Assembly (NCBI GenBank): GCA_013151255.1
Contig: JAADIQ010000071.1
Coordinates: 1-39,295 of the forward strand
Length of the DNA stretch: 39,295 bases
Direction: 5' to 3'
Origin: Alphaproteobacteria bacterium
GTDB lineage: Bacteria > Pseudomonadota > Alphaproteobacteria > Caulobacterales > Parvularculaceae
Numbering within the stretch: the stretch's first letter is position 1; every line of letters begins with the position of its first letter. Under the pieces are notes generated by a model, which saw only the letters and a program-made list of their open reading frames with translations, had not been told where the DNA came from and did not search any database. Of this stretch, positions 10,155-30,665 are shown piece by piece. The position numbers and the translations under genes were made by a program.

Positions 10155-10676
10155 ATGAAAAATTCAGTTTTATATAGCTCGCTGAGCGATCTCTGGGGCA
10201 CGCCGCCAGAGCTGTTTCGGCTGCTCGATGAAGTCTATGACTTTCAACTCGACGCGGCGTCAACAAAACAAAACCGGCTTTGCAAGAACCATTTCACCCG
10301 CGATGATGATGGCCTGGCGCAAGACTGGAGCGGGTATCGCCGCATCTGGCTGAACCCGCCTTATGGCCGCACCATCGGCGCATGGATGCAGAAAGCCTAT
10401 GAGGAAAGCCAAAAAGGATGCCTCGTTGTGTGTCTTGTGCCGGCCCGCGTCGACACCCGATGGTGGCATGACTGGGTGCAGAACAAGGCGCAGGTGACTT
10501 TCATAAAAGGACGGCTTAGATTCATCCGCTATAGCGATGGCAGCGACGCCCGCGGCGGCGGCGCGCCGTTCCCATCGGCGCTGGTGATTTATGAACCGAA
10601 CCTTTCTCGCCGCATTGATTATTCTTTCTTGCCTCTGGAGCGCAAACGCTACCGCCCAATCTTATCTTTCGGATAA
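10155..10676 (+). CDS. Phage-type DNA N6-adenine methyltransferase (Dam-like)
   Basis: 173 residues. The N-terminus LWGTPPELFRLLDEVYDF and DAAST are typical of phage-encoded DNA N6-adenine methyltransferases. NPPY at residues 67-70 is the catalytic motif of N6-adenine enzymes, and VPARVDTRWWHD and GGGAPFPSALVIY are further family blocks. It should transfer a methyl group from SAM to adenine in a short DNA site; GATC is plausible for the family but not shown. The last ~85 bp overlap the next gene in another frame. It stands alone outside a prophage, probably a captured phage gene. Confidence 0.85.
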   Translation: MKNSVLYSSLSDLWGTPPELFRLLDEVYDFQLDAASTKQNRLCKNHFTRDDDGLAQDWSGYRRIWLNPPYGRTIGAWMQKAYEESQKGCLVVCLVPARVDTRWWHDWVQNKAQVTFIKGRLRFIRYSDGSDARGGGAPFPSALVIYEPNLSRRIDYSFLPLERKRYRPILSFG

Positions 10677-11307
10677 GGCGCAAGTTTCCGCGCGCGAGGG
10701 TGTGCAGAGTATAATTCGATCGCCTTCGCGATCAGCGCGCGAGGGCGCGCAGAGTATAATTCGATCGCCTTCGCGATCCGCGCGCGAAGGCGCGCAAACA
10801 ATAATTCGATCGCCTTCGCGATCCGCGCGCGAAGGCGCGCAAACAATAATTCGATCGCCTTCGCGATCGGGGCGGAGGCTGGAGCAGGAAGTCGAAACGC
10901 GCCTGCGCCAGTTCGGTATTGAGATTATCGAGGCAAAAGACTGGGAGGAGGCGCGGCTCCATCGAGACCCGAACATGACGGCGGTTATCAAAAACGCGCC
11001 TTATGTGTCGATCTATGGCCATCGCGCGCGCATCGAGTTTTTGCTGTTGCATCAGGGCCGGCAAATCCTCATCGAAGTGAAACGCCAGCGCTCGCCCGGC
11101 TCTACCGATGAGAAGCTGCCTTATGTTTATGAAAATGCGTTAGCGAATTTGGCGCTGGGTCGAGAATTTGTGCTTATCGTGGAGGGCGAAGGCTGGAGGC
11201 CCGGCGCGATCACCTGGATCAAAACCAAGGCGGCGGAAACGAAGAATTTTACCGTTTTCCATCCCCCGCAATTTTACCAGTGGATAGATGCGCAGATCGC
11301 GCACTAG
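10591..11307 (+). CDS. Predicted PD-(D/E)XK nuclease-superfamily protein with 4 x 15-residue repeat
   Basis: 238 residues if started at ATG 10591. The first 23 residues resemble a signal peptide (hydrophobic stretch, then ANATAQ), although they overlap the methyltransferase in another frame. Residues ~33-93 are four copies of a 15-residue unit SAREGAQSIIRSPSR encoded by a 45-bp tandem repeat. From residue 95 a PD-(D/E)XK-like domain follows: ARIEF (E149), then a strand and EVKRQ (E162-x-K164), then STDEKLPYVYENALAN, which matches small phage nuclease-superfamily proteins. An exported nuclease would be odd, so the true start may lie after the repeats. Activity is inferred from the motif only. 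Confidence 0.7.
   Translation: MNRTFLAALIILSCLWSANATAQSYLSDKAQVSAREGVQSIIRSPSRSAREGAQSIIRSPSRSAREGAQTIIRSPSRSAREGAQTIIRSPSRSGRRLEQEVETRLRQFGIEIIEAKDWEEARLHRDPNMTAVIKNAPYVSIYGHRARIEFLLLHQGRQILIEVKRQRSPGSTDEKLPYVYENALANLALGREFVLIVEGEGWRPGAITWIKTKAAETKNFTVFHPPQFYQWIDAQIAH
10690..10869 (+). repeat. 45-bp tandem repeat x4, GATC-rich with two hairpins per unit
   Basis: Four head-to-tail copies with an exact 45-bp period; the element ATAATTCGATCG starts at 10711, 10756, 10801 and 10846. Each unit contains GATCGC-CTTC-GCGATC and a GC-only arm, GCGCGC-GAAG-GCGCGC in copies 3 and 4. It carries two GATC sites per unit, eight in 151 bp. The period is a multiple of three, so copy number can change without breaking the overlapping gene. 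Confidence 0.9.
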
Positions 11308-23818: not shown

Positions 23819-25120
23819 ATGGAATTTCGCCCTATTGCCCTATTTAGAAAGCTCGCTTCGGGTGCGCGCGGCGGTCCGGTCTGGCGCGGCGGAACCGGCG
23901 ATATGGTGGCCGCGCTCTATGATGACGGCATCTTTTTGGAAGTCTCGCCATCGGCGGCGGAGATGATTGGCGCGGCGGGCAATCTGGTTGGCCGCTCATT
24001 GTTTGATTTTGTCCGCCGGGAAGACCGTGCGGCGGTGCGCGCGGCGATGGTCGAGGCGGCGTCCAGCGCTTATGCGCCGGCGAGCCGGCTGCGGGCGAAT
24101 TTTCGGCTGTTGCGGGTGCGCCGGGCGGCGGCGCTGGCGGAAATCACCTTTACCCCGCTTGGCCGCGGCCGGTTAATGGCGCTTATCCGCGACCGCAGCG
24201 AGGAGCTGGCGCAACGCCGCGAGACCCGCATCGCCGAAGAGCGCGTCGCCCGCCAGGCAATGCCGCATTCGGTTGGCGTGCAATCCACGCCGCAAATATC
24301 GCCTGAAATAAATCCAACACCCGCATCACTGCCGCCAGAGCTGATGGCGAATTTAAGTCATGAGATGAAAACTCCGCTCAACGCGATTATGGGTTTTGCC
24401 GATGCGATGCGGACGGAGACTTATGGCCCGCTCGGGCATGAGAAATACGCCGAATATGTCGGCGATATCCATGCCGCCGGCGCGCATTTGCAAGAGCTGA
24501 TCGCATCGCTGTTTGACTTCGCCAAGGTTGAGACCGGGCAGTATGGTTTAAATCCGGTGCTGGCCGCGCCTGGACCGGCAGCGCGCGAATGCGCGGCGAT
24601 GATCCGCGGCGAGGCGGCGCGTGCGGGGCTTTCCTTGCGGGTGAATATTGCACCCGACCTGCCAGAGACCATGATCGATGCGCGCGTGGTCAAACAAATC
24701 CTGATCAATCTCCTCACCAATGCGGTGAAGTTCACCATGGAGGGCGAGATTGAATTATCGGTGGAAGAAAAATGCGGTGCGATTGACTTCACCGTGCGCG
24801 ACACCGGCATCGGCATGAGCGCAATGGTGCTGGCCAAACAGGGCGGGCGCTATTCCGACACCCATAAGGACGGCGTACGCGGAACAAAAGGCTCAGGCCT
24901 CGGCCTGTCGCTGGCGTTCTCGCTGGCCAAGTTGCATGGCGGCGCCTTGCGGCTGCAATCGGAACCCGGCAAAGGCACCACCGCGCGCCTGACCCTGCCG
25001 GTGCGGCGCGCGCTTACAGGGCAGACTAGCCCCGCCGTCAGCTCATCGGTCTGCGACATCCAAAGCCAGCTCGACCGCGTCAACGCCTATCGCCGTGACC
25101 GCGCTGCAAGAGCGGCTTAA
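23819..25120 (+). CDS. PAS-domain sensor histidine kinase
   Basis: 433 residues without membrane segments. A PAS-like domain lies at about 25-125 (SPSAAEMIGAAGNLVGRSLFD), then a coiled linker. The dimerisation/phosphoacceptor helix carries the H-box NLSHEMKTPLNAIMGFADAM (His181). The ATPase domain has the N-box INLLTNAVKF (Asn301), DTGIGM and GTKGSGLGLSLA. It is a cytoplasmic orthodox kinase with no response regulator adjacent. The 268-bp gap before it shares a promoter region with the divergent exported protein. It converges with xrtE with a 4-bp overlap. Confidence 0.9.
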   Translation: MEFRPIALFRKLASGARGGPVWRGGTGDMVAALYDDGIFLEVSPSAAEMIGAAGNLVGRSLFDFVRREDRAAVRAAMVEAASSAYAPASRLRANFRLLRVRRAAALAEITFTPLGRGRLMALIRDRSEELAQRRETRIAEERVARQAMPHSVGVQSTPQISPEINPTPASLPPELMANLSHEMKTPLNAIMGFADAMRTETYGPLGHEKYAEYVGDIHAAGAHLQELIASLFDFAKVETGQYGLNPVLAAPGPAARECAAMIRGEAARAGLSLRVNIAPDLPETMIDARVVKQILINLLTNAVKFTMEGEIELSVEEKCGAIDFTVRDTGIGMSAMVLAKQGGRYSDTHKDGVRGTKGSGLGLSLAFSLAKLHGGALRLQSEPGKGTTARLTLPVRRALTGQTSPAVSSSVCDIQSQLDRVNAYRRDRAARAA

Positions 25121-26775
25121 AGCAAACTCCACTGCCCGAAGGCAATCGCCCAGAAGGCGATAATCGCATTGGCCGACTTATGCGCGATGACGGCGCCGGT
25201 GACTTTGCCTGAGCGATACAGCGCGAGCGCGAAGGCGGCGCCAGCGAGGCCGCCGGCGAGCCAGCGGTCGTGCAGCGCCGCGAACAGAACCGACGAGATG
25301 ATGAACGCCTTCCAGGTGAAGGCGCCCTCTTTGACCGCTTCAAAGCGGTCGGCGATTAGCTTGCGATGAAGGTAGCCACGAAAGGCCAGCTCTTCGGCAA
25401 TCGGTACAAGGATGATTGTGCCGATCGTGCGCATAACAATCCAGAAAATCGCCGCCGTCGCCGGCACGCCCGCCAGCCATATGCCGAGATCGCTCGTCTC
25501 GCCGCGTCCGGGGTCGGTCGCAATCCACGCAACACCGACAATTGCGCCAATCAGCGCCGGCTCGGCGTAAGCGCGCAAGCTTTCCGGCAGGGCAAGGCCG
25601 CGATAAAATCGCCAACCGATAACAAGCGCGGCGCCAATCGCAATCACCCGCAAGCTGTAAAGCCAATAGCCGTCGGCGGTGAAAGCGGCGGCGATAATAC
25701 CCGCAGCCGTCATCGCCAGGAACGGCGCCAGTAAAAACATCGCCTCGCGAAAGGCCGGGGCGGGCACAGCGTCTGACACATGCGCGGTTTCGTTGCGGAA
25801 AAAACCAATGTGGTGGGTCGCCAGCATTATCCCGATGGTGACGATAAGGAACATCATCCACCCGGCCTGGGAGTGAAATCCGGCGCCGGCGATTTCCGGC
25901 GAGACATGGGCGCCGAGGCTGATAAGCGCCGCGATGCGCACGCTGTTTAATATCCAGATCGCGGCAATGCCGATCGGCAACACCAGATAGGCGTTTGGAA
26001 ATCGTAACGCTGCGCGGAATATCCACAGGTAAATCGATAAAAACGCGGTGACCAGCCCAATCCCCTCATAGCCGGAACAGGCAGCGGCAATATTGACGAC
26101 GTACCCGTCCGCGCCAAGCAGCCGGCGCGCCGGATCGACAAACACGTCTTTTTCATAGAGGCCAAGAATAAATGCGGAGACCTGGAACGTCGCTTCGGAC
26201 AGGAAAGTCCAGGATTTTTGCGACATTTCCGAAGCGATGGTGACAAATCCGGCAGCGCCCGCCGCAAGGAGGGCAAGCCATTTTTGACGCGTCATCATCT
26301 GTATAAGGAATTCAACTGGCGCCAACGCCATCGCCAGGAGATAATAAAGGCCGAATACGCCAGCGCTCCATAAGCCAAACAATATCCAGGGCGGTTCGGC
26401 AAGGTTTGCGCCATGGGCGTTGAACGCGAGGGTTGCGGCGGCAAGGATGATGAAGCCGGCAAGATTGGCGCCCATCCATGAGGTCCAGCCGCGCGCCTGC
26501 GCGACTATGCGCCAATCGGCAAACAATGTGCGCCGCTGCGGCGCCAGCAAAACCCCGAGCGCCGCGCCAAAAAATATCACCACCGGAACCAGTTCTCGCA
26601 GCCCTGCACGCACCGCCAACCATAAAGGATCGCTCGCATTGATAGTCAGCGGGTCGTAAAGGAATGCCAGCACCGGCAGCTCAATCAGCGCCAGCACAAA
26701 GACCAGCGCTCCGCGCAAAGCCAGAGACGGGCCTGCAGGCGCTGCGGCAACCGGATATGAAGATGTCTCAGCCAC
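25117..26775 (-). CDS. xrtE: Exosortase E fused to a CPBP-family protease (XrtE, VPEID-CTERM system)
   Basis: 552 residues, about 14 or more helices. The N-terminal two thirds are exosortase. The catalytic triad is visible: Cys233 in NIAAACSGYEGIGL, Arg280 in NSVRIAALI and His301 in FHSQAGWMMF. The C-terminal third is a CAAX/CPBP protease with EELAFR (Glu461, Glu462, Arg466), His502 in ALHDRW and His532 in AHKSANAI. This fusion defines exosortase E of the VPEID-CTERM system, which recognises a C-terminal VPEID-TM-basic signal. Three matching small substrates are immediately upstream on the same strand, separated by a terminator. Confidence 0.93.
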   Translation of the reverse strand: MAETSSYPVAAAPAGPSLALRGALVFVLALIELPVLAFLYDPLTINASDPLWLAVRAGLRELVPVVIFFGAALGVLLAPQRRTLFADWRIVAQARGWTSWMGANLAGFIILAAATLAFNAHGANLAEPPWILFGLWSAGVFGLYYLLAMALAPVEFLIQMMTRQKWLALLAAGAAGFVTIASEMSQKSWTFLSEATFQVSAFILGLYEKDVFVDPARRLLGADGYVVNIAAACSGYEGIGLVTAFLSIYLWIFRAALRFPNAYLVLPIGIAAIWILNSVRIAALISLGAHVSPEIAGAGFHSQAGWMMFLIVTIGIMLATHHIGFFRNETAHVSDAVPAPAFREAMFLLAPFLAMTAAGIIAAAFTADGYWLYSLRVIAIGAALVIGWRFYRGLALPESLRAYAEPALIGAIVGVAWIATDPGRGETSDLGIWLAGVPATAAIFWIVMRTIGTIILVPIAEELAFRGYLHRKLIADRFEAVKEGAFTWKAFIISSVLFAALHDRWLAGGLAGAAFALALYRSGKVTGAVIAHKSANAIIAFWAIAFGQWSLL

Positions 26776-26879
26776 GTCTATTTATACCCGCCCGCCAGTT
26801 GGGAAGCAAAAGATTATGATCTAAATCATGCGAGAACTGCGCCATTCCGCGGAGTATGCGTATATGAACGGCAGCTAAG

Positions 26880-26913
26880 AAAACGGCCCTCCACGAAGGT
26901 GAAGGGCCGTTTA
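26880..26913 (-). terminator. Rho-independent terminator after the CTERM genes
   Basis: AAACGGCCCT (26881-26890) pairs with AGGGCCGTTT (26903-26912). Read on the minus strand it follows the third CTERM gene and ends in T-rich sequence, separating the substrate genes from xrtE so that substrates can be made in excess. Confidence 0.85.
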
Positions 26914-26933
26914 TTGGTTAACGAAGTCAAAGT

Positions 26934-27104
26934 CTATTTACGTTTGGTCCGCTCACGAATAACCGCGGCAACGCCAATCAGCAATGCAATCGCTGCAACA
27001 CCAGCGCCCGCACTCATTTCCGGCACTATTATATCCGTAGGCTTGCCAGCAAGTGCTGCTGTTGACATCAAAGCAAAGGCTCCCGCCAAAATAAATTTCG
27101 TCAT
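26934..27104 (-). CDS. Minimal VPEID-CTERM-type protein 1
   Basis: 56 residues. Signal peptide 1-19 (MTKFILAGAFALMSTAALA), seven-residue spacer GKPTDII, then the sorting motif VPEM (27-30), a helix SAGAGVAAIALLIGVAAVI and the basic tail RERTKRK. It thus contains only export and sorting signals. Exosortase E (next gene) is expected to cut at VPE and join the remaining stub to an unknown partner. It is the last of three tandem copies in transcription order. ATG 27104 has AGGAGA upstream. Confidence 0.88.
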   Translation of the reverse strand: MTKFILAGAFALMSTAALAGKPTDIIVPEMSAGAGVAAIALLIGVAAVIRERTKRK

Positions 27105-27117
27105 CGATATATCTCCT

Positions 27118-27285
27118 CTATTTACGTTTGCTACGTTCGCGAATAATCGCGGCAACGCCGACCAACAAGGCAACCGCCGCAACACCAGCGCCAGCGCTCA
27201 TTTCCGGCACTTCAACCCATGGCTCGCCCGCCATAGCCGCCGTTGACATCAAAGCGAAGGCTCCGGCCAAGATAAATTTCGTCAT
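27118..27285 (-). CDS. Minimal VPEID-CTERM-type protein 2
   Basis: 55 residues: signal peptide MTKFILAGAFALMSTAAMA, five-to-six-residue spacer GEPWVE, VPEM at 26-29, then the same membrane helix and RERSKRK tail. ATG 27285 is preferred over ATG 27291 because the GGGGAG RBS lies 8 bases from the former and only 2 from the latter. It lies 13 bp from copy 1 and 13 bp from copy 3, so the three genes form a tight operon. Confidence 0.88.
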   Translation of the reverse strand: MTKFILAGAFALMSTAAMAGEPWVEVPEMSAGAGVAAVALLVGVAAIIRERSKRK

Positions 27286-27298
27286 CGTCATATCTCCC

Positions 27299-27469
27299 CT
27301 ATTTACGTTTGCTACGTTCACGAATAATCGCGGCAACGCCAACCAGCAACGCAACTGCGGCAACACCAGCACCAGCGCTCATTTCAGGCACGTCCGGAAT
27401 GAGTTTATCGCTCGCCATAGCCGCTGTTGACATCAAAGTCAGAGCGCCCGCTAAAATATATTTCGTCAT
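27299..27469 (-). CDS. Minimal VPEID-CTERM-type protein 3
   Basis: 56 residues and first in transcription order. Signal peptide MTKYILAGALTLMSTAAMA, spacer SDKLIPD, VPEM at 27-30, and a helix and RERSKRK tail identical to copy 2. ATG 27469 has AAGGAG 8 bases upstream. The spacer is the only part that differs strongly among the three paralogues. Confidence 0.88.
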   Translation of the reverse strand: MTKYILAGALTLMSTAAMASDKLIPDVPEMSAGAGVAAVALLVGVAAIIRERSKRK

Positions 27470-27825
27470 CGTCATTACTCCTTGATTTACGGGTTTCATT
27501 GTTCCGGCAATTGCGGCAGAGCCATAAAGCCGCGCAACGCCGGCGCAATCGTGAAATTTTTCACTCCCCCATTCCCACCTTCAGACCGCAAAACCTGCCG
27601 TCTCCCAAAATGATACAGTTCGGTAAGGTTGAATGCAACGCACCGCCCGCCATAGTTGTGAGTAACGCAGATCGCTCGCGCTAAGTCTTCGTGCTTGTGC
27701 GCCAAAACGGCGCAGTTGTAGCGTTTATTGCACGGCACAAAAATCAGACTAACGTGCAAGGGCAATAGAGTTTTGTGCTAATAAATTGAAAACCCACATG
27801 TCGACAGATCAGCAGGCCGAACAAT
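27470..27825. other. Intergenic region between CTERM operon and sterol-desaturase gene, with inverted repeats
   Basis: No gene is supported. It should hold the CTERM operon promoter (minus) and that of the desaturase gene (plus). It contains three inverted repeats: TGCGCC/GGCGCA (27698-27714), TTGCACG/CGTGCAA (27728-27759) and GCACAAAA/TTTTGTGC (27735-27778). The last two interleave, which would permit a pseudoknot-like RNA or two alternative hairpins. Confidence 0.45.
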
Positions 27826-28659
27826 ATGGATTTCTTCAGAGGCGTGACGGGACTTTATTTTGCTCTTGGGGTGCTGGCGTCGGCGCTGGTGCTGGAAGCG
27901 ATGATGCCGTGGCGGCGCGGCGTGAAAATCAGCCCGGCGCGCTGGGTGCGTAATGCATCGATGAGTTTTTATAGCTTTATCCTTCTCGGCTTGCTTCCGT
28001 TATTGTCGGCTTATGGCGCCGCGATGATCGCAGAAGCGCGCGGCCTGGGGGTGTTTAACCAGATGACGGCGCCGTTATGGGTAACGGCGCTGGCGGCGAT
28101 TATCGCCTTTGATCTGACCGCCTATGGCGTCCATCGCTCATTACACAAATGGTATTTTCTGTGGCGCACCCATCGCACCCATCATGGCGATGCGCATATT
28201 GATGCAACCACCTCGCTGCGGTTTCACCCGTTTGAGGCGCTGGTGCGCGCGATCATTGACCTGCCGGTGGTGTTCCTCCTCGGCCTGCCGGAGGAGGCGA
28301 TTGTAGTTAATTTTGTGGTGCTGACTGTGGTCAACACCTTCACCCATACCAACATTGCGCTGGCGCCATCTGTCGAACGCGTCCTCTCGCGCATCCTGGT
28401 GACGCCGCATATTCATCGCCTGCATCACTCAGCGGCGCCGGAACATCTCGACACCAATCTCGGTACGATATTTTCGCTGTGGGATCGGTTGTTCGCCACG
28501 TTTACGCCGTCGGACAGGCTGCGCGAGAATGAGGTATTCGGCATCGAAGGCCCTGAGGCGATCACGCCGGACAGTTTCGCCAATCTTGCGCTCGACCCGT
28601 TTCGCAAACCCGACCATGCAGCCATTCCCAAGCCAGAGCCGAGGGATGCGAGGCCATGA
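27826..28659 (+). CDS. Sterol desaturase / fatty acid hydroxylase superfamily protein
   Basis: 277 residues, a membrane-bound di-iron enzyme. The four histidine clusters are visible: HRSLH, HRTHH, HTNIA region and HIHRLHHS. The latter part NLGTIFSLWDRLFATFTPS is typical of the family. It uses oxygen to hydroxylate or desaturate a lipid; the substrate cannot be named. N-terminal helices start at about residues 9-27. It overlaps the DUF1491 gene by 4 bp. Confidence 0.9.
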   Translation: MDFFRGVTGLYFALGVLASALVLEAMMPWRRGVKISPARWVRNASMSFYSFILLGLLPLLSAYGAAMIAEARGLGVFNQMTAPLWVTALAAIIAFDLTAYGVHRSLHKWYFLWRTHRTHHGDAHIDATTSLRFHPFEALVRAIIDLPVVFLLGLPEEAIVVNFVVLTVVNTFTHTNIALAPSVERVLSRILVTPHIHRLHHSAAPEHLDTNLGTIFSLWDRLFATFTPSDRLRENEVFGIEGPEAITPDSFANLALDPFRKPDHAAIPKPEPRDARP

Positions 28660-29810: not shown

Positions 29811-30665
29811 ATGATGATAAAAATCATCAGATATCCGCTGACAAGGCTTATCCTCGGCATAGCGTTGTTGCTTGGCTTTGTGTTCGCAGCAGGAGGGGCT
29901 GGCGGGCTCGTAGCCGATAACCTCGCTATAGAAAATTCAACCGCCATAGCGGCGTTGGATGCGGGCTTTGCAATCTTTGCCGCGTGTTTATCTTACTGGG
30001 TATTGGTGCGGCTTATTGAAGGGCGCGCGGTGACGGAGCTTTCTGCTCGCTATGCGGTTCCGGAATTATTCATCGGTATGCTGATTGGTGCTAGCTTCAT
30101 CTCCTCGGTGATGGGGGTTTTATATTTAGCCGGGTTTTTTGAGATAAACGGCGTGCGCAGTGTTGATGTTCTTGTCGCGCCGTTGATTGCGGCGATCGCG
30201 ACCGGGTTCATTGAGGAGATTGCGCTGCGCGGCGTGATTTTCCGCATCATCGAGGAATGGCTCGGCACCTGGATTTCCCTGCTGTTCAGCGCGGCGTTGT
30301 TTGGCGCGCTGCATCTTGGCAATGACAATGCAACGCTCGTCGCCGCGCTCGCCATCGCGCTTGAGGCGGGCATATTGCTGGCGGCGGTCTATATGGTGAC
30401 GCGTCGGCTGTGGGTGGTTATAGGCCTGCATGCGGGCTGGAACTTCACCCTTGGCGGGGTTTATGGCGGCGCGGTTTCCGGCTTCGAGCAAGAGGGCTTG
30501 CTGGATGCGACCATCGCCGGCCCGGAGCTGATCACGGGCGGCGCCTTCGGGGTTGAAGCGTCGGTGGTGACGATTGTTATCGGGCTTGCTCTGGCGCTCT
30601 TTTTCCTGTTTCGCGCAGGCCAGAAAAATCGCTTCATCGCCGCGCCATGGCGACGCGCGAAGTAG
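29811..30665 (+). CDS. CPBP family intramembrane metalloprotease
   Basis: 284 residues and about 8 helices. The ABI/CAAX motifs are EEIALRGVIFR (Glu135, Glu136, Arg140), FGALHLGN (His168) and GLHAGWN (His207), the expected glutamate/histidine active site in the membrane. Such proteases cleave within the membrane in peptide maturation or immunity. It lies 18 bp after the SH3 lipoprotein. It is unrelated to the protease domain of XrtE except at the family level. Confidence 0.92.
   Translation: MMIKIIRYPLTRLILGIALLLGFVFAAGGAGGLVADNLAIENSTAIAALDAGFAIFAACLSYWVLVRLIEGRAVTELSARYAVPELFIGMLIGASFISSVMGVLYLAGFFEINGVRSVDVLVAPLIAAIATGFIEEIALRGVIFRIIEEWLGTWISLLFSAALFGALHLGNDNATLVAALAIALEAGILLAAVYMVTRRLWVVIGLHAGWNFTLGGVYGGAVSGFEQEGLLDATIAGPELITGGAFGVEASVVTIVIGLALALFFLFRAGQKNRFIAAPWRRAK

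Follow-up and report, generated by a model that had tools for sequence, protein, structure and literature searches.

A stretch of 39,295 nucleotides from an Alphaproteobacteria bacterium of the Parvularculaceae (assembly GCA_013151255.1, contig JAADIQ010000071.1, positions 1 to 39,295; the window hereafter) carries on its minus strand the gene for exosortase E (XrtE), a fusion of an exosortase with a CPBP intramembrane protease, and upstream of it an array of three tiny genes. Each tiny gene encodes nothing beyond a signal peptide, 6-7 residues, the motif VPEM, a single helix and a tail of basic residues. We read the locus as a dedicated system that probably, at a probability of roughly 0.6, attaches very short peptides to an acceptor in the cell envelope, perhaps a lipid. 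The reading is based on sequence, namely the anatomy of the tiny proteins, their genomic pairing with xrtE, selection on the C-terminal tag, a terminator, conservation of both active sites and a linked gene of the fatty acid hydroxylase family; the excess of substrate, the export step, the two cleavages, the transfer, the part played by the CPBP half and the acceptor are what we infer. A first-pass annotation of the same DNA had described the fusion and the three genes of 55-56 residues, and their coordinates, anatomy and catalytic residues were all confirmed. Three observations go beyond it: near-empty substrates are common at XrtE loci, a terminator lies between array and enzyme, and a hydroxylase-family gene is linked to them.

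The xrtE gene (25117-26775, minus strand, GTG start) encodes 552 amino acids. The product scored 261.1 bits against TIGR04162 (cut-off 150) over profile positions 35-515 of 516, indicating that it belongs to the exosortase E family, and its C-terminal half scored 124.3 bits against TIGR03008, a CAAX-protease-related family (cut-off 81.05). The Pfam domains found were PF09721 and PF02517. In an alignment of 48 sequences, the window's included, C233, R280, H301, E461, E462, R466, H502 and H532 were invariant, partly by selection for H301, E461, E462 and R466, which sit within the patterns used to find the aligned loci. We take the Cys, Arg and His to serve the exosortase half, and the Glu-Glu, Arg and His the CPBP half. 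An AlphaFold2 model built from the 48 sequences reached a mean predicted local distance difference test score (pLDDT) of 90.5 and a predicted template modelling score (pTM) of 0.81. No solved structure was matched by profile, and a Foldseek search of the model, CPBP half included, returned no match at E <= 0.001. The other exosortase of this genome, on contig C119 (locus L027, 2704-4236), is XrtD (TIGR04152, 502.3 bits, cut-off 400). Because this is a different system, the VPEM genes have one evident partner, XrtE.

The tiny genes lie on the minus strand at 27299-27469 (gene 1, 56 residues), 27118-27285 (gene 2, 55 residues) and 26934-27104 (gene 3, 56 residues), each with a GGAG-type ribosome-binding site upstream. 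Alternative ATG-ACG-ATG starts could lengthen genes 1 and 2 to 58 and 57 residues. From the AxA of the signal peptide to VPEM, the spacers read SDKLIPD (7 residues), GEPWVE (6) and GKPTDII (7), and GEPWVE recurs identically in genome G020 (locus L010). Of the features of the VPEID-CTERM signal, VPE, the helix and the basic tail are present, with Met for Ile and Ser for Asp in all three. The Met at motif position 4, to which the first-pass annotation had drawn attention, is found in 27/27 profile-found tags in nine loci of the genus and in 0/77 elsewhere. None of the three proteins has any Cys, the residue sought for its place in the MYXO-CTERM signal.

The same anatomy was followed through 37 tiny genes from 12 genus loci, picked by the VPEM pattern. 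In 36 of them the last residue of the motif [AV]xA is number 18 or 19, and in the remaining one it is 22; the motif stood at the same place in 5.9% of shuffled N-termini. Under a laxer rule (residues 15-26), all 37 genes were matched versus 44% of shuffles, so that the evidence for a signal-peptidase site lies in its register. With the site in register, only a short peptide would be expected to remain after processing. The first-pass interpretation is supported in part, as far as a dedicated set of XrtE substrates with a would-be mature part of 6-7 residues is concerned. Spacer lengths were 4-8 residues in 32 genes, 11 in one and 25-27 in four (L036:5553-5816, L037:5214-5474, L038:5466-5720 and L010:917-1177). 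The four long spacers hold two Cys in a similar pattern, and such paralogues occur at 4 of the 12 loci; the window is without this type.

Pairing was assessed in 24 genomes, the window's own and 23 others of Marinicaulis/Hyphococcus; among the genus loci, L036 is from a Hyphococcus (Parvularculaceae) and L041 from Marinicaulis flavus SY-3-19. An xrtE over the cut-off is present in nine, and strong tag matches (E < 1e-14) are present in exactly the same nine; the other 15 have neither. All 35 strong matches, in frames of 58-160 amino acids from stop to stop, lie near xrtE: 34 share a contig with a full xrtE, and the remaining one, on contig C89 of the window's genome, stands beside an xrtE start cut at the contig end. 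Since the tag profile was built from tags beside xrtE, matches there arise by construction, and the informative test is the absence of the tag from the 15 genomes and from elsewhere in the nine. The profile search gave no strong match in a long frame in the 24 genomes. There were also five weak matches (E 0.01-0.1), from two genomes with xrtE and two without; four of them lie in frames of 202-664 amino acids and one in a frame of 86, and all are read as chance. In the window's genome, the profile (E up to 0.1) found only the three window genes and the one on C89. Genus loci not cut by a contig end hold two to four divergent tiny genes.

Contig C89 (locus L026, 2-494) carries the start of a second xrtE, adjoined by one VPEM tiny gene of 54 residues and a hydroxylase-family gene; it may represent a second locus, or the contig may have strayed into the bin.

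To describe selection, we compared the proportions of synonymous (pS) and nonsynonymous (pN) differences among the genus genes. The pS was high in tag and signal peptide alike (0.63 and 0.68), and pN was 0.13 and 0.43, respectively. The helix alone gave a pS of 0.60, a pN of 0.13 and a pN/pS of 0.21, and pN/pS was 0.24 in the tail and 0.63 in the signal peptide. The lack of replacement in VPEM follows from the choice of the set by that pattern and was not used. Among 11 reciprocal nearest pairs, which include several that are not truly orthologous and two for which the cleavage rule cut late, pN/pS was 0.61 in the spacer, the least constrained part, 0.38 in the signal peptide and 0.13 in the tag; a few pairs have exactly identical spacers. 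The tag helix is under purifying selection. Recent gene conversion as the source of similar tags was rejected, as pS is ~0.6-0.7 throughout. The tiny genes are thus more than chance frames, because they recur beside every over-cut-off xrtE of the genus and pS is well above pN in the helix.

Contigs were then scanned with the XrtE alignment, and the best 80 of at least 177 relatives were kept, a sample that favours close ones. These loci come from Alpha-, Beta- and Gammaproteobacteria, myxobacterial and other delta groups, Planctomycetes and Acidobacteria. With a tag profile built from those same loci, a tagged frame was found in 64 of the 80, in one case 4 kb off (L102). Outside the eight genus loci there were 72 tagged frames, measured from stop to stop: 51 of at most 125 amino acids (L107:7135, at 14 bits, is a false frame), 9 of 126-199 and 12 of at least 200 (in L081 a short start is likely). 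A crude signal-peptide rule placed 56 of the 72, with a median length of 74 amino acids and a median spacer of 19; the spacer was <=10 residues in 20 and >100 in 10. In Acidobacteria (L082, L093, L098 and L099), proteins of 50-54 amino acids would keep 0-4 residues by this rule. Tagged frames of 47 amino acids from stop to stop, with no signal peptide by the crude rule, were found in a member of the Hyphomicrobiaceae (L044:5483-5626) and a proteobacterium (L045:56-199). Near-empty substrates are therefore common at XrtE loci and not obligatory.

Long substrates occur in Methylococcaceae (L074 and L085) and in a Rhodocyclaceae member (L060), and substrates of 167-171 amino acids in two Gammaproteobacteria (L058 and L059). 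L074 and L085 each have four tagged frames of 226-384 amino acids (stop to stop) around a single xrtE. Because such lineages carry long substrates, small size is no rule of XrtE, and its loci can carry proteins too. The first-pass annotation had listed long-domain homologues at the locus among what would refute its idea; at xrtE loci they do exist, in L074, L085 and L060, and the strong tags of the genus include none. In the 11 long rows of the tag alignment, L15 is present in 11 and G18 in 8; P-E is present in all tag rows by the search pattern. Lineages differ in where the tag gene lies with respect to xrtE and in the direction in which it points.

Between the array and xrtE lies a predicted intrinsic terminator, a 13-pair hairpin with a T-rich tail (26873-26911, minus strand). 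Its best energy was -23.3 kcal/mol, and 0 of 100 shuffles were as low. A strong hairpin and T-rich tail of this kind were found after the last tiny gene and before xrtE in 10/10 genus loci (the window, C89, L036-L042 and L068), with 0 to 2 of 100 dinucleotide shuffles equally low. A chance terminator was rejected by this comparison, and array and xrtE look like separate transcripts. A scan with a strict terminator pattern picked up just a 5-pair site, which did not exceed what shuffles gave. TTGCAT-17-TATCAT, in a conserved block at 27610-27638 (minus strand), is a weakly indicated candidate for the array promoter and is kept in the five near loci aligned, the window included. A sigma-70 consensus scan found 0 sites (shuffles 1.0) and missed this candidate too, and a sigma-54-like motif gave stray matches only, in 3 of 11 upstream regions.

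Divergent from the array, on the plus strand, is a gene of the fatty acid hydroxylase family (27826-28659, PF04116, 98.3 bits with Pfam). A PF04116 gene is present in all eight genus scan loci, on C89 and in the window. Outside the genus, it occurs in 5 of 72 scan loci (L055, L058, L081, L082 and L107) and in L031 from a class search, directly adjoining xrtE or a tiny gene in all six; with 2 to 10 members of PF04116 per genome, this distant adjacency can be taken as suggestive at most. Within the 24 genomes, homologues with E < 1e-85 are restricted to the nine with xrtE, and the next best, in genomes without xrtE, reached 2.6e-46 (G002) and 9.2e-42 (a short copy in G017). The linkage seen here resembles the juxtaposition of artA and pssA, which, according to the available text of PMC7157517, prompted its authors to test PssA and PssD and showed both to be involved in ArtA-dependent maturation. 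The homologue at L036:3996-4844, rather than the window copy, was compared with NCBIfam; its sole match was the ornithine lipid hydroxylase OlsE (NF052566), at 73.8 bits far under the cut-off of 475, so that it is not OlsE by that test. Among the papers covered by a text search, none combined exosortase and sterol desaturase.

The overall route that we propose is the simplest reading, modelled on exosortases and archaeosortases. The array would be transcribed by itself, up to the terminator, and yield pro-peptides that probably outnumber XrtE; Sec would export them, signal peptidase I would cleave after AxA, and the basic-tailed helix would anchor what remains in the inner membrane. The exosortase half, with its Cys, Arg and His, would then cleave VPE-M and transfer a peptide of ~6-10 residues to an acceptor in the envelope. 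A lipid is the likeliest acceptor, and exopolysaccharide comes second. The linked hydroxylase-family gene speaks for a lipid in the genus, and context elsewhere for polysaccharide. The CPBP half may work on that tag as well, perhaps removing the stump of the helix or making a second cut; this is plausible because, in the available text of PMC11980579, a CPBP enzyme alone is responsible for the cleavage of a C-terminal tag in Myxococcus. A more specific form of the proposal, which we offer tentatively and regard as doubtful, is a ribosomal lipopeptide route, in which XrtE would join genome-encoded micro-peptides of ~4-8 residues, supplied by an exchangeable array of pro-peptides, to a hydroxylase-shaped lipid, and relatives would load the two-Cys 25-27-mer. 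If so, the content of the substrate would be the peptide itself, with no protein domain.

Several results weigh against the proposed conjugation system. The window proteins scored 16.3, 16.4 and 17.9 bits against TIGR04161 (VPEID-CTERM), below its cut-off of 33. Searching the window's genome at E up to 10 gave seven TIGR04161 matches, all of them short of the cut-off, namely the three window genes, the one on C89 and three weak partial matches (E 0.04 to 2, frames of 76-142 amino acids). At 16 of the 80 scan loci no frame with a tag was found, and 7 of these 16 have >4.5 kb of sequence on each side. The hydroxylase-family gene was not found in 67 of the 72 scan loci outside the genus, so it cannot be a general requirement. 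In a tree of 18 of the 115 unlinked hydroxylase matches and 11 genus-linked rows, a single origin of the linked hydroxylases was neither supported nor excluded, and the short relative in G017 (L126), a genome lacking xrtE, fell in the linked clade. PF13444, which we take to be the OlsB-like step of ornithine lipid synthesis, was found in 5/9 genomes with xrtE and 4/15 without, and was not found in G013, rated 100% complete; by this distribution, ornithine lipid as the general acceptor was not supported. Among 34 window frames scanned with Pfam, no polysaccharide synthesis or export family was found. As to L126, it is perhaps a relic of a lost xrtE locus.

The acceptor could instead be exopolysaccharide, the short peptides capping or anchoring a matrix polymer as suggested for PEP-CTERM proteins, an alternative we think rather improbable. 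Poly_export proteins flank 6 of the 80 scan loci (L047, L057, L061, L088, L089 and L103), and a Wzc-type kinase is present at L112, with homologues at L089 and L103. Sixteen plasmid records match a relative's XrtE, and among the matches listed (15), 12 are annotated xrtE; when four plasmid regions were examined, three lay amid polysaccharide genes (L116, L118 and L119) and one did not (L117). Exosortases are also linked to exopolysaccharide in the available text of PMC12188702. However, the Pfam result for the window frames speaks against a polymer, and the gene that tracks xrtE in the genus belongs to a lipid-hydroxylase family.

Free release of the peptide, to serve as a signal or toxin, is unlikely. 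The short, variable spacers (4-8 residues in 32/37) would fit this, and the two-Cys paralogues of relatives, with 25-27-residue spacers at 4/12 genus loci, would be its clearest case. However, plain release needs no sorting enzyme, and the spacer is the least constrained part in the nearest pairs, though a few pairs share an identical one. No receptor was seen either: the kinase adjoining xrtE (23819-25120) matched PAS, HisKA and HATPase only in Pfam, and a membrane-helix-like stretch sought in it was not found (best 19-residue hydropathy 1.07).

The first-pass annotation had also raised the idea that the CTERM helix, once released, is itself the active part; it might then be, for instance, a small regulator in the membrane, set free by the two proteases. 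To this we give still less credence. Conservation is indeed highest in the tag (pN/pS 0.21 for the helix, and 0.13 for the tag in the nearest pairs), but the long XrtE substrates keep the helix signature, with L15 in 11/11 and G18 in 8/11, so that recognition of a sorting signal alone can explain the conservation. Finally, strict pairing with xrtE and tiny size would suit uncut hairpin subunits of XrtE, yet this is very improbable given a signal-peptidase site in register in 36/37, two to four divergent copies at loci uncut by a contig end, a separately terminated array and long tagged proteins at some loci.

Compared with known systems, the proposed peptide-attaching module is closest in family terms to exosortase E/VPEID-CTERM (TIGR04162 with TIGR04161). 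The enzyme passes the cut-off and the tag is built alike, with PE, a basic tail and a Gly in position 18 or close to it; unlike that system, the tags have Met for Ile at position 4 and stay under the TIGR04161 cut-off, and the locus has several paralogous near-empty substrates, a terminator and the hydroxylase-family gene. A text search of the literature, without reach to the founding paper (Haft and others 2012), found neither VPEID nor exosortase E as whole words. Exosortase A/PEP-CTERM shares the exosortase family, the order of signal peptide, short motif, helix and basic tail, and links to exopolysaccharide (available text of PMC12188702), whereas XrtE joins a CPBP protease to the exosortase in one polypeptide, and most of its substrates are tiny. 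Archaeosortase A with PssA and PssD is alike in that the sorting gene adjoins a lipid-biosynthesis gene in some genomes; its substrates are lipid-anchored (both from the available text of PMC7157517), whereas here a lipid is suggested by gene linkage, the neighbour being of the hydroxylase family. In MrtX/MYXO-CTERM and MrtJ/JDVT-CTERM, a CPBP protease likewise cuts a C-terminal helix tag, MrtJ having a single target in a two-gene locus (available text of PMC11980579). In contrast to the MYXO-CTERM signal with its invariant Cys, there is none here, and the CPBP protease is fused to an exosortase.

The acceptor of bacterial exosortase substrates is, to our knowledge, unsettled. Native substrates of ~55 residues that would leave about six offer a small target for a direct mass-spectrometric search for it, and the hydroxylase-family neighbour is a concrete, testable hint of a lipid. 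If the proposal is true, a peptide-conjugating pathway would extend across several phyla, with substrate genes small enough to be overlooked.

Other features of the window include a separate CPBP (Rce1-like) protein near the module (29811-30665), homologues of which flank three other genus loci. At 10591-11307, a gene encodes a signal-like N-terminus, near-perfect tandem 15-residue repeats (SAREGAQ-IIRSPSR type) and then a PDDEXK nuclease domain (PF20472); it is adjoined by a Dam-type methyltransferase frame (10155-10676).

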